Assembly: GCF_016937535.1 (NCBI RefSeq)
Contig: NZ_JAFHKK010000006.1
Coordinates: 1 to 64,000 of the forward strand
DNA: 64,000 bases
Source of the DNA: Sulfurospirillum tamanense
GTDB lineage: Bacteria; Campylobacterota; Campylobacteria; Campylobacterales; Campylobacteraceae
Direction: 5' to 3'
The notes under the pieces were generated by a model, which searched no databases, was not told the DNA's origin, and saw only the letters and a program-made list of their open reading frames with translations. Below are positions 46,937 through 50,122 of this stretch, piece by piece (the first letter of the stretch is position 1; each line of letters begins with the position of its first letter). A program made the translations under genes and the position numbers.

Positions 46937-47905
46937 ATGTTAATTGATGGTCATGGAAGAGAAGTAAGCTATTTAAGGGTCTCTGTTACGGAACGGTGCA
47001 ATTTTCGGTGTCAATATTGCATGCCAGAGAAGCCATTTTCTTGGGTGCCCAAAGAGAAGTTATTGAGTTTTGAAGAACTGTTTTTGTTTATCAAAGTGGC
47101 GATTGATGAGGGGATTAAAAAAATTCGCATCACGGGCGGTGAACCGCTTTTGCGCCACGGACTGGACGAGTTTATTGGGATGATTAATGCTTATAAAAGT
47201 GGCCTAGACATTGCACTGACAACCAACGGTTTTTTACTCGCAGACGTAGCCCAAAAGCTTTATGATGCGGGATTAAAGCGGGTGAATATTTCACTGGATT
47301 CACTGAAGCCTGAAGTGGCAAAACAAGTGGCTCAAAAAGAGGTCCTTGGACGCGTTCTTGGAGGCATTGAAGCTGCCCGTTTGGCAGGTATACATGTAAA
47401 GATTAATACCGTGCCTATGCGGGGTATTAATGACACAGAACTGCTTGACATTATGGAATACGCTAAAGCCCGCAATATGCCCATTCGGTTTATCGAGTAC
47501 ATGGAAAACCACCATGCCAATCCTGACCTTAAGGGCCTTAAGTCTGAGGAGATAAAAGCCATTATTGGCACCAAATATGCCTTTGAAGAGATGGGACGTC
47601 AGGGTGCTAGCCCCGCACAACTCTACCGCCTAGAAGACGGGTACGTCTTTGGCATCATCGACCCGCACAAGCACGATTTTTGCGAAACCTGTAACCGCAT
47701 TCGTTTGACCGCAGAGGGAATGCTCATTCCGTGTTTGTATTTTGATGAAGCCATGAGCATTAAAGACGCGGTACGCAAGGGTGATGTGGCAGGCGCCGCA
47801 GAAGTACTGCGCACGGTGCTTGCGAATAAACCTGAAAAAAACCGCTGGAGCGAAGACCAAGAAAACCAAAGCAGTGACCGCGCCTTTTACCAAACGGGAG
47901 GCTAG
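46937..47905 (+). CDS. moaA: GTP 3',8-cyclase MoaA
   Basis: 322 residues. A radical SAM enzyme for the first step of molybdenum cofactor synthesis. N-terminal 4Fe-4S motif [13 protein letters not shown] region [11 protein letters not shown], and the second cluster [18 protein letters not shown] near the C-terminus. AAAGGTGGAG precedes the ATG. A promoter TATAAT lies at 46884-46889. Confidence 0.96.
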
Positions 47906-48078
47906 TGTGCTATAATGCGCGCTTTTTTACCAAAAATGGCGCATTAGACATCTTCGCAACTATAGTGTATAAGACAAAAAAGCACCAAGGGTGCGCGGGC
48001 CCTGCGCCGAGCAGAACTCAGCGTTAGCGTAGTCTTTGGAGCTTTGCTTCAAAGGCGTATCTAAAAAGAAGGAAAGAC
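47906..48078 (+). promoter_or_regulatory. Structured leader upstream of queF
   Basis: 173 bp, more GC-rich in its second half than its surroundings. A TATAAT (47911-47916) overlaps an inverted repeat TAATGCGC (47913-47920) / GCGCATTA (47939-47946) whose loop has complementary T and A runs. Downstream come three hairpins: GCACC/GGTGC (about 47981-47993), GCGCGGG/CCTGCGC (about 47993-48007) and CTTTGGAGC/GCTTCAAAG (about 48034-48054). It does not match the preQ1-I consensus. It may be a structured regulatory RNA or a dispersed repeat. Confidence 0.45.
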
Positions 48079-48465
48079 GTGAAATACGGAGAGAAAATTA
48101 TTACCACTTTTGATGTGGAAAAAGATTTGGAAGTGTGGCCCAATAAGCACCAAAAAAATTATGTGATTCACATCACCTTGCCCGAATTTTGCTGTTTGTG
48201 TCCGCGCAGTGGGTATCCTGATTTTGCAACCATTAAGCTCGAATACATTCCCGATGCGTTAGTAGTAGAACTCAAAGCCATCAAGCTTTACATCAATAGC
48301 TTCATGACCCGCTCCATCAGCCACGAAGACAGTGCCAATGAAATCTACGACGTGCTAATGACCAAACTTGCGCCAAAATGGCTCAAAGTCGTGGCCGATT
48401 TTAACCCCCGTGGTAACGTGCACACGGTGATTGAGATTGATTCTTCCGTGGTGTCTAAAGGGTAG
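48079..48465 (+). CDS. queF: NADPH-dependent 7-cyano-7-deazaguanine reductase
   Basis: 128 residues, the short unimodular QueF type. Reduces preQ0 to preQ1 in queuosine synthesis. FCCLCPRSGYPDFATI carries the catalytic Cys, and FMTRSISHEDSANEIYDVL the substrate-binding His and Glu. GTG 48079 follows AAGGA. A transporter for queuosine precursors is encoded 2 nt downstream. Confidence 0.93.
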   Translation: MKYGEKIITTFDVEKDLEVWPNKHQKNYVIHITLPEFCCLCPRSGYPDFATIKLEYIPDALVVELKAIKLYINSFMTRSISHEDSANEIYDVLMTKLAPKWLKVVADFNPRGNVHTVIEIDSSVVSKG

Positions 48466-48467
48466 AG

Positions 48468-49016
48468 ATGAGCTTAAAACAGACGTACATGTACGGGGCG
48501 GTTTTTGCCCTGCTCATTGCTTTGGCTAATTACACGGTACAATTTGCTATCAATGAATGGATTACGTACGGGGCATTGTTATACCCTTTTACGTTTTTGA
48601 TGTCCGATATTCTTTCAGAACGCTACACCAAACAAGAAACCCTTAAAGTGGTGCGTGTTGGGGTGGTGCTTGCCATCGTGCCTACCTTGCTCGTAGCTGA
48701 TGGAAGAATCGCTTTTGCGTCCATCGTGACCTTTTTACTCATTCAACAATTTGATGTGGTTATTTTCCATGCTCTTAAGAAAAAATTTGAAAAACTGTGG
48801 TGGTTGCGCAACAACGGCAGCACCTTAACATCCCAACTGTTTGACACGGCGCTGTTTTTTACTTTGGCGTTTGGGGGCACGATGCCCACTTCTATGCTTG
48901 TGAAACTCATCATCGGAGACTATTTAGTCAAGGTTGCCTTAGCCCTTTTAGACACCCCATTTTTTTACCTCTTTGCCATTAAACTACAAAACAAAACCTT
49001 ACGCAAACACCTTTAG
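48468..49016 (+). CDS. Queuosine precursor transporter (VUT/YhhQ family)
   Basis: 182 residues with about six membrane helices. The family segment YGALLYPFTFLMSDILSERY is present, along with an internal basic loop (KKKFEKLWWLRNNGSTLTSQLFDTALFF). Imports preQ0/preQ1-type bases; the pairing with queF supports the role. Convergent with moeA, overlapping by 4 nt. Confidence 0.87.
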   Translation: MSLKQTYMYGAVFALLIALANYTVQFAINEWITYGALLYPFTFLMSDILSERYTKQETLKVVRVGVVLAIVPTLLVADGRIAFASIVTFLLIQQFDVVIFHALKKKFEKLWWLRNNGSTLTSQLFDTALFFTLAFGGTMPTSMLVKLIIGDYLVKVALALLDTPFFYLFAIKLQNKTLRKHL

Positions 49017-50122
49017 CTCCACGCCAAAAACGACCGAAATGTTACGCCCTCACCTGTATTTAGGGGGCGGTTTGTCTCCGTTAGGATAAACCCATTGCAG
49101 TGGTTGAGCACGTTAATCATCCCCGCAGCAATCTGCTTGGGATGAAACGCCCTTCCATCAAAAAAGCCCGGCACGATACTTTGAGAATACGGATGGGCTT
49201 TAATGGAGCTTGCGGTAATCGTAGTAATGAGCCCTTGGGCTTCGTCCATGCCATACAGTTGGCGAATCAGCGCTGCGCCAATCACCTCAAAACCCAGCAA
49301 AGAAGACATAGGAAGGCCAGGAAGGTGCACAACGGGTGTTGTGTCCAAAAAACTCAATGCCGTTAACCCCGCGGGCGCCATGGCAACCCCTTTAAAAAGG
49401 GTGCGCAAAGGGCCAGAATCTAACAAAGAATGCATGGCGTCTTGGGCGCTCATCCCGCCGCTTGTAATAATGGCATCCACATTATGTAATGCACCAAGGG
49501 TAGCTAAAATAGCTTCAGGAGTATCGCTGGTGTGGGTGATGGTAGCCGTGCGCGCGCCCATCATTTCACCACGTGCGGCCATGGTGTAAGCGTTAGAATT
49601 ATAAATGTGACCAGTTTTAGGGGCTTCTTGCACATCGATAAGTTCATCCCCAATGCCCACATACGCAATGCGCGCTTCTTTAATGACACGCAAGGTGTGC
49701 ATCCCTTGGCTGGCAAGATTAGTGATGTCAAAAGGGCCTATTTTTTGCCCTTTTTGCACAAGACACTCGCCTTTGGTGATGTCTTCGCCTTGGGCTTTAA
49801 TGAAACTGTCTTCTGGCACAATCGAGGCAGGGTCGCATGTACTTAAGGCTTCATTTTCCACGATGCATGCGGTGTTTTCAGGCACCCGCCCTCCGGTGGA
49901 AATGGAGGCAAGCCCTTCAAAAGAGGTTAAAGGCAAGGCGCCATAGGGAACAATCTTGCCATCGCGCAAGGAGATAGGAAAAGGGGGCACGGAAAAATGC
50001 GCAAGTACAGGCTCAGCACTGATGCGCCCAAAGGCTTTCATGAGTGGCACGGTTTCGGCGGTTTGTAGTGGGGTGATGCAAGAAGCAATGTGCGCAAGGG
50101 CATCGCTTAGGCTTAGTTTCAC
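49013..50122 (-). CDS. moeA: Molybdopterin molybdenumtransferase
   Basis: 369 residues, slightly short for MoeA. Inserts molybdate into adenylylated molybdopterin. Recognisable segments: ISTGGRVPENTACIVENEAL, GIGDELIDVQEAPKTGHIYNSNAYTMAA, VDAIITSGGMSAQD, and VHLPGLPMSSLLGFEVIGAALIRQL. GTG 50122 follows AAGGAG at 7 nt. It lies near moaA but in the opposite direction, so the two are not cotranscribed. Confidence 0.92.
   Translation of the reverse strand: MKLSLSDALAHIASCITPLQTAETVPLMKAFGRISAEPVLAHFSVPPFPISLRDGKIVPYGALPLTSFEGLASISTGGRVPENTACIVENEALSTCDPASIVPEDSFIKAQGEDITKGECLVQKGQKIGPFDITNLASQGMHTLRVIKEARIAYVGIGDELIDVQEAPKTGHIYNSNAYTMAARGEMMGARTATITHTSDTPEAILATLGALHNVDAIITSGGMSAQDAMHSLLDSGPLRTLFKGVAMAPAGLTALSFLDTTPVVHLPGLPMSSLLGFEVIGAALIRQLYGMDEAQGLITTITASSIKAHPYSQSIVPGFFDGRAFHPKQIAAGMINVLNHCNGFILTETNRPLNTGEGVTFRSFLAWS

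Follow-up and report, generated by a model that had tools for sequence, protein, structure and literature searches.

A Folded, Probably Mobile Intergenic Repeat of Campylobacterota in the queF Leader of Sulfurospirillum tamanense

Introduction

In Sulfurospirillum tamanense, the queF gene is preceded by 173 bp of hairpin-rich DNA (47906–48078), raising the question of whether this leader is a preQ1-responsive regulator of queF or belongs to a more widespread element. All coordinates refer to the window, the 64,000-nt stretch of DNA that was analyzed; the S. tamanense genome is referred to in the following as G000, and its sister genome as G001. In the window, queF, which has a GTG start (48079–48465, plus strand; TIGR03139, 127.7 bits), and the next gene, which encodes a queuosine precursor transporter (48468–49016, plus strand; TIGR00697, 124.7 bits), are flanked by moaA upstream (46937–47905, plus strand; TIGR02666, 356 bits) and an opposite-strand moeA-like gene, the whole region spanning 46937–50122. 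Known classes of preQ1 riboswitches form an H-type pseudoknot in the leader of a queuosine gene. A preliminary description of the locus found no fit to these classes, offered a regulatory RNA of a new kind and a dispersed intergenic repeat as alternatives, and suggested a search of the genome, a look at other queF leaders and a covariance analysis.

Results and Discussion

The queF Leader Is Composite

When the S. tamanense genome was searched with 47890–48100, there were 38 matches at E ≤ 10, and 18 matches besides the queF locus had E ≤ 1.1e-8. All matches with E < 0.8 other than the queF locus started at query position 82 or beyond (window position 47971 or beyond), which places the inverted repeat that overlaps the TATAAT outside the repeated unit. 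The leader is real but composite, consisting of a promoter-like and inverted-repeat part (47906–47978) and a copy of a dispersed structured repeat with an 86-nt core (47979–48064, plus strand). The earlier reading of all 173 bp as a structured leader therefore holds for the repeated unit, but not for the full length. The core scored 111.2 bits (E 5.9e-22) with the covariance model R1, which was built from 32 copies that in part include the queF-leader copy itself; for this copy, the BLAST matches are the independent evidence.

The upstream part starts with a promoter-like site within the 3′ end of moaA: TTACCA (47887–47892), an 18-nt spacer and TATAAT (47911–47916, plus strand) preceded by TG, identified by consensus match only, with 0.4 such sites expected in the scan. 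The inverted repeat over the TATAAT (47913–47946, plus strand) has the form previously reported, with two 15-nt arms (47913–47927 and 47932–47946) that are 87% complementary. It is also present in G001 and does not belong to the repeat family. Between it and the core lies a possible degenerate 5′ flanking hairpin, CATCTTCGCAAC...GTGTATAAGAC (47949–47975, plus strand), seen by eye in a pairwise alignment with G001, where it is better formed than in G000. The three hairpins noted in the preliminary description were all found within 47982–48056, inside the core.

Distribution of the Repeat

A search with R1 found 21 copies in G000, 32 in G001 and 41 in a further genome, G055, while 12 additional genomes had 3 to 76 copies each, the largest number being in G187. 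The suggestion of a dispersed intergenic repeat was thus correct for S. tamanense, where many copies lie in unrelated intergenic spacers, an outcome that the preliminary description had itself set against a regulatory role for queF. Across the order, R1 detected at least one copy in 136 of 398 genomes and in 29 of 88 genera. About a dozen matches at most were scored per genome in this survey, so that its copy counts are lower bounds, and the 262 genomes with no match serve as a negative control for the search. By BLAST, none of 35 other members of the S. tamanense family had the repeat, and only genus g1 was positive within the family. Among the matches listed in a pattern scan of named genomes, the repeat was found in Sulfurospirillum, Sulfurimonas, Sulfurovum, Sulfuricurvum, Hydrogenimonas and less precisely named Campylobacterota; one metagenome-assembled genome was labeled only Proteobacteria, and the other named matches were Campylobacterota.

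Rfam 15 gave only a tRNA at the gathering threshold in the whole window, no match at E ≤ 5 within 47880–48110, and no match at E ≤ 1 in 12 repeat-bearing loci from other genera. No earlier description of the family was found in the accessible parts of the literature consulted (PMC3733652, PMC2267715, PMC11109978, PMC8632094, PMC6429828), although one of its hairpins, P3 (see below), may be among the GTAG repeats of Sulfurovum NBC37-1 (PMC3733652).

Across two pattern scans, a single viral contig with the repeat was found, the tailed-phage contig IMGVR_UViG_3300032212_000702. Its one copy (locus L318, 5681–5778, minus strand) precedes a head maturation protease gene, in the spacer that separates this gene from a portal gene.

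The Repeat Is Not Specific to queF

QueF protein was present in 135 of 149 genomes, and 30 of the 135 queF loci were examined with R1. A leader copy was found only at the S. tamanense locus. Three other loci had a copy elsewhere in the fetched stretch, a fourth had a chance-level match, and the leaders of the other 29 loci had none. Since the leader copy occurs at 1 of 30 loci, a queF-specific switch is not supported, and with unrelated genes neighboring the copies elsewhere, the proposal of a new regulatory RNA of queF was not upheld.

The same data bear on the idea that queF and the transporter gene are controlled by a new class of preQ1/preQ0 riboswitch. The copy does precede these two genes, and it shares with the known preQ1 riboswitches a predicted H-type pseudoknot in the leader of a queuosine gene. 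It differs from them in having no Rfam match, many unrelated neighbors and no conservation at queF. The absence of a known preQ1 class agrees with the preliminary description as far as Rfam goes, and no Rfam preQ1 class was detected in 13 of the 30 queF loci either. With 20 other copies in G000 and unmatched preQ1 covariance models, comparison at the sequence level does not support a preQ1 switch, and this explanation is so improbable that we rejected it.

One Fold, Kept by Compensatory Changes

The fold was analyzed in two alignments: A1, comprising 32 copies, and A4, comprising 47 divergent copies hand-picked across many genera. Judged from their covariation, the 47 divergent copies have one common fold, in which an H-type pseudoknot is combined with a GNNA mini-hairpin and a long hairpin. 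The queF-leader copy, with all elements on the plus strand, starts with the hairpin P1 (GCACC-AAG-GGTGC, 47982–47994; 86.9% of cells paired in A1). P1 is lost from the second copies of tandem arrays in G000 and G001, and it occurs in at least two forms, the short one above and a long one, GCGC-GGTTYANCT-GCGC. It is followed by P2 (CTGC-GCCGA-GCAG, 48002–48014), in which all four pairs changed on both sides in A1 as well as in A4, with 100% pairing in A4. An upstream G/A covaries with a C/U in the P2 loop in A1 (16 G-C, 14 A-U and 2 exceptions), which indicates an H-type pseudoknot, formed in the queF copy by GGC (47998–48000) and GCC (48006–48008). In A4, the varying pair of this helix was G-C in 25 copies and A-U in 22, with no exceptions. 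The mini-hairpin (GC-GTTA-GC, 48021–48028) has a GNNA loop in 45 of the 47 copies; one closing pair is G-C, and the other covaries (C-G 36, U-A 8, U-G 2, A-U 1). The last element, P3 (48032–48056), has a TTT loop, with the GTA of a GTAG unpaired on the 5′ side and CGTA on the 3′ side, and 10 of its 11 pairs changed on both sides in A4 (97.1% paired).

Overall, 98.4% of 938 cells were paired in A4, compared to 73.4% in shuffles, and 16 of 20 pairs changed on both sides, in a set that was chosen from good matches and in which related rows are counted many times. The suggested covariance analysis thus showed a fold kept through compensatory changes in both alignments, and none of 500 shuffles reached the observed pairing. 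Folding of 47906–48078 alone was unexceptional (−50.2 kcal/mol, z = −1.42; 12 of 200 shuffles folded as well) and was rejected as proof of structure; we consider the fold real because of the compensatory changes between copies, not because of its energy. RNAalifold proposed an outer stem for A1 (14–23/41–52), but its distinctive pairs were less well kept in A4, one being unpaired in 16 of the 47 copies, and the pseudoknot, whose pair had no exceptions, was therefore preferred.

The pairs also reveal the folding strand. A4 contained 74 G·T cells and only 3 A·C cells (41 and 3 once the single G·U-rich pair is set aside), which shows that it is the plus strand that folds, either as RNA or as single-stranded DNA. 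The near-perfect pairing, in an alignment hand-picked from good matches, may reflect selection on an RNA product rather than on mobility, and a general RNA function is possible in view of the precise, RNA-like fold. The core might even be a functional RNA that itself spreads, carried in lineage-specific DNA ends and taking on host functions at some sites. It could, for example, be a ribozyme, a SINE-like RNA spread by retrocopying, or the RNA target of a hitherto undescribed ribonucleoprotein; we regard this reading as unlikely.

Placement Relative to Genes

After merging of arrays, the placement set comprised 139 sites, 122 of which had open reading frames (ORFs) called on both sides and none covering the site. 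These were divided into 55 sense, 29 antisense, 19 divergent and 19 convergent sites. Length was the sole criterion for calling an ORF, and a site that is orthologous between sister genomes enters the counts twice. The ratio of sense to antisense sites was 13:2 in G000, 13:5 in G055 and 9:4 in G001, whereas G212, G401, G039, G187, G076 and others together had 20 sense and 18 antisense sites. Since the sense excess is confined to the first three genomes, the repeat is not the obligatory 5′-leader element that the G000 ratio had hinted at.

These numbers also weigh on a broader cis-regulatory class, in which each copy would be a 5′-UTR element that acts on the gene behind it by binding a common ligand or protein. 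Such a class would account for the pseudoknot and tetraloop, the near-perfect pairing in 47 copies, the sense excess in G000 and the position of the copies, many of which, by eye, finish just upstream of a start codon; at sense sites, the core ended a median of 22 nt before the ORF called downstream. It is distinctly unlikely, however, given the lack of sense bias in other lineages, the convergent sites, the unrelated neighboring genes, the restriction to 29 of 88 genera and the sites that are empty in a sister genome (see below). A role as a terminator in the antisense orientation was rejected, as the A-run before P1 was not enriched at antisense or convergent sites. No replichore bias in orientation was evident by eye in the list of G055 copies.

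Empty Sites, Arrays and Ends

For eight sites in G000, the flanks were joined without the element and searched in G001. Two to three of these sites are repeat-free in G001. Sites L007 and L012 are empty there, the insert at L007 being bounded on both sides by the 7-bp direct repeat TAAGGAA. The two-copy array at L006 is also absent from G001, where AAAGCACC remains, which may be the scar of a deletion. L003 has two copies in G000 and one in G001; the joined flanks of L008 and L010 had no match in G001, and L005 and L002 were uninformative. At queF itself, there is a single copy in G000 and two tandem copies in G001. In the arrays L084, L093, L134 and L096, the core is repeated along with local flank, suggesting that arrays arose via local duplication.

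The ends of the repeat vary by lineage, so that no single moving unit can be delimited. Flanking hairpins or inverted repeats occur at a minority of sites and are lineage-specific. Direct repeats of at least 7 bp flanked 35% of 136 sites and 22% of controls, a weak excess that led us to reject a uniform target-site duplication. Some copies in G076 and G187 are enclosed by TGCCATTAAGTTAA inverted repeats; by a strict motif search, ends of this type were present at 2 of 13 G187 sites and 2 of 7 G076 sites fetched, and at none in other genomes.

Such ends would fit a transposon MITE family that is delimited by terminal inverted repeats and carries the fold as passenger sequence. That the same ends can bound another insert (L343) speaks for this explanation, but the ends are found at few sites, and compensatory pairs are not expected in passenger sequence, so that we consider it quite improbable. 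At L343 (G076 C15:12316–12420), the inverted repeats TGCCATTAAGTTAAGA, which bound some G076 copies, enclose a different structured insert, as though ends and cargo had been swapped.

Relation to REPs and RAYT Transposases

In the way it works, the repeat resembles known small dispersed repeats, but its size and fold set it apart from REPs. ERIC, BOX, MIRU and other small intergenic repeats are of the same size class, intergenic, probably transcribed and have no gene of their own. Simple hairpins are the rule among small dispersed repeats, and ERIC, BOX, MIRU and the like are not known to have a pseudoknot that spans many families of one phylum. The present repeat stands out by its strictly kept pseudoknot and tetraloop, its occurrence in many families of one phylum, where a genome can hold as many as 76 copies, and its lack of an Rfam family.

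Another parallel is provided by GTAG-tagged palindromic repeats (REPs) and REPINs, which, in the accessible part of a 2013 survey (PMC3733652), are likewise dispersed, intergenic and hairpin-based, with a GTAG foot, tandem groups and G·T pairs that hint at RNA. For Sulfurovum NBC37-1, the same survey records repeats of both the GTAG and the CGTC type. The present repeat might be a GTAG-type REP family in which P3 is the REP hairpin and RAYT transposases provide mobility. GTAG does stand at the 5′ foot of P3, with TAG at columns 57–59 in 39 of the 47 A4 copies and CAG in 6. In 44 of the 47, however, its last G forms a pair with C, in contrast to the motif of REPs, which is unpaired as described in the survey (PMC3733652). 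REPs are described there as single hairpins of 20–40 bp that rarely form head-tail dimers, in contrast to the present strand-asymmetric unit of ~86 nt, which combines several helices, including a GNNA mini-hairpin, with a pseudoknot and occurs in head-tail arrays.

RAYT transposases are loosely associated with the repeat. RAYT-like proteins were found in G000, G001, G055 and G039. The best NCBIfam match was NF047646, below the cut-off, in a scan that covered L046 of G001, the near-identical counterpart of the L045 protein of G000, rather than L045 itself. A RAYT-like protein was present in 79 of 136 carriers of the repeat and 68 of 262 non-carriers, an association that ignores phylogeny. The tested RAYT-like protein went unmatched in the other 57 carriers, including G187 with its 76 copies, G212 and G401. 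No repeat was found in the short fetched flanks of six RAYT-like loci, and flanking of RAYT genes by repeats was rejected. Weighing the motif and the shared occurrence against the unit size, the bare RAYT-like loci and the high-copy carriers, we regard a REP family as possible but doubtful. In G000, L045, L049 and L050 are three distinct RAYT-like Y1 transposase genes, none of which adjoins a repeat.

Most likely, the queF-leader element is instead one copy of a family of non-autonomous mobile intergenic repeats of Campylobacterota with a strand-specific folded core of ~86 nt whose RNA-like fold is under selection. The constant part would be this core, comprising P1, the H-type pseudoknot, the GNNA mini-hairpin and the long P3 hairpin. 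A trans-acting recombinase, either a RAYT-like single-strand transposase or another, would recognize the folded strand and copy it into gene-adjacent spacers. What argues against this is that the flanks fetched for the six RAYT-like loci contain no copy and that the high-copy genomes G187, G212 and G401 lack a match to the tested RAYT; the weak direct-repeat excess, the lineage-dependent ends and the possible deletion scar at L006 count against it as well. The queF copy presumably landed between moaA and queF in the genus of G000, before the split from G001. In this position, it probably belongs to the transcribed queF leader, where it may have a side effect on mRNA stability or translation but would sense neither preQ0 nor preQ1. 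Copies with empty sister sites offer a countable natural experiment on how a folded insertion affects adjacent genes, and the fold provides a handle for finding the protein that recognizes it.

Variation among Individual Copies

Degenerate copies are present from 35 bits upward. At one site, L018 in G000 and L035 in G001, the flanks are identical at 112 of 113 positions, but the P2 domain is replaced and preceded by a 7-nt insertion, suggesting local conversion or templated mutation. Such copies fit the birth and decay expected of a mobile repeat. Insertions of ~20–60 nt, partly self-complementary, lie inside loops whose flanking stems are preserved, in the P2 loop (L118, L107 and L129), the P3 loop (L127) and the mini-hairpin (L017 and L166). 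In one G001 copy (L026:1500–1585), the 5′ arm of P3 has been incorporated into a perfect inverted repeat, TTAGATACGCCTTTGAAGC / GCTTCAAAGGCGTATCTAA, a feature that sets this copy apart from others.
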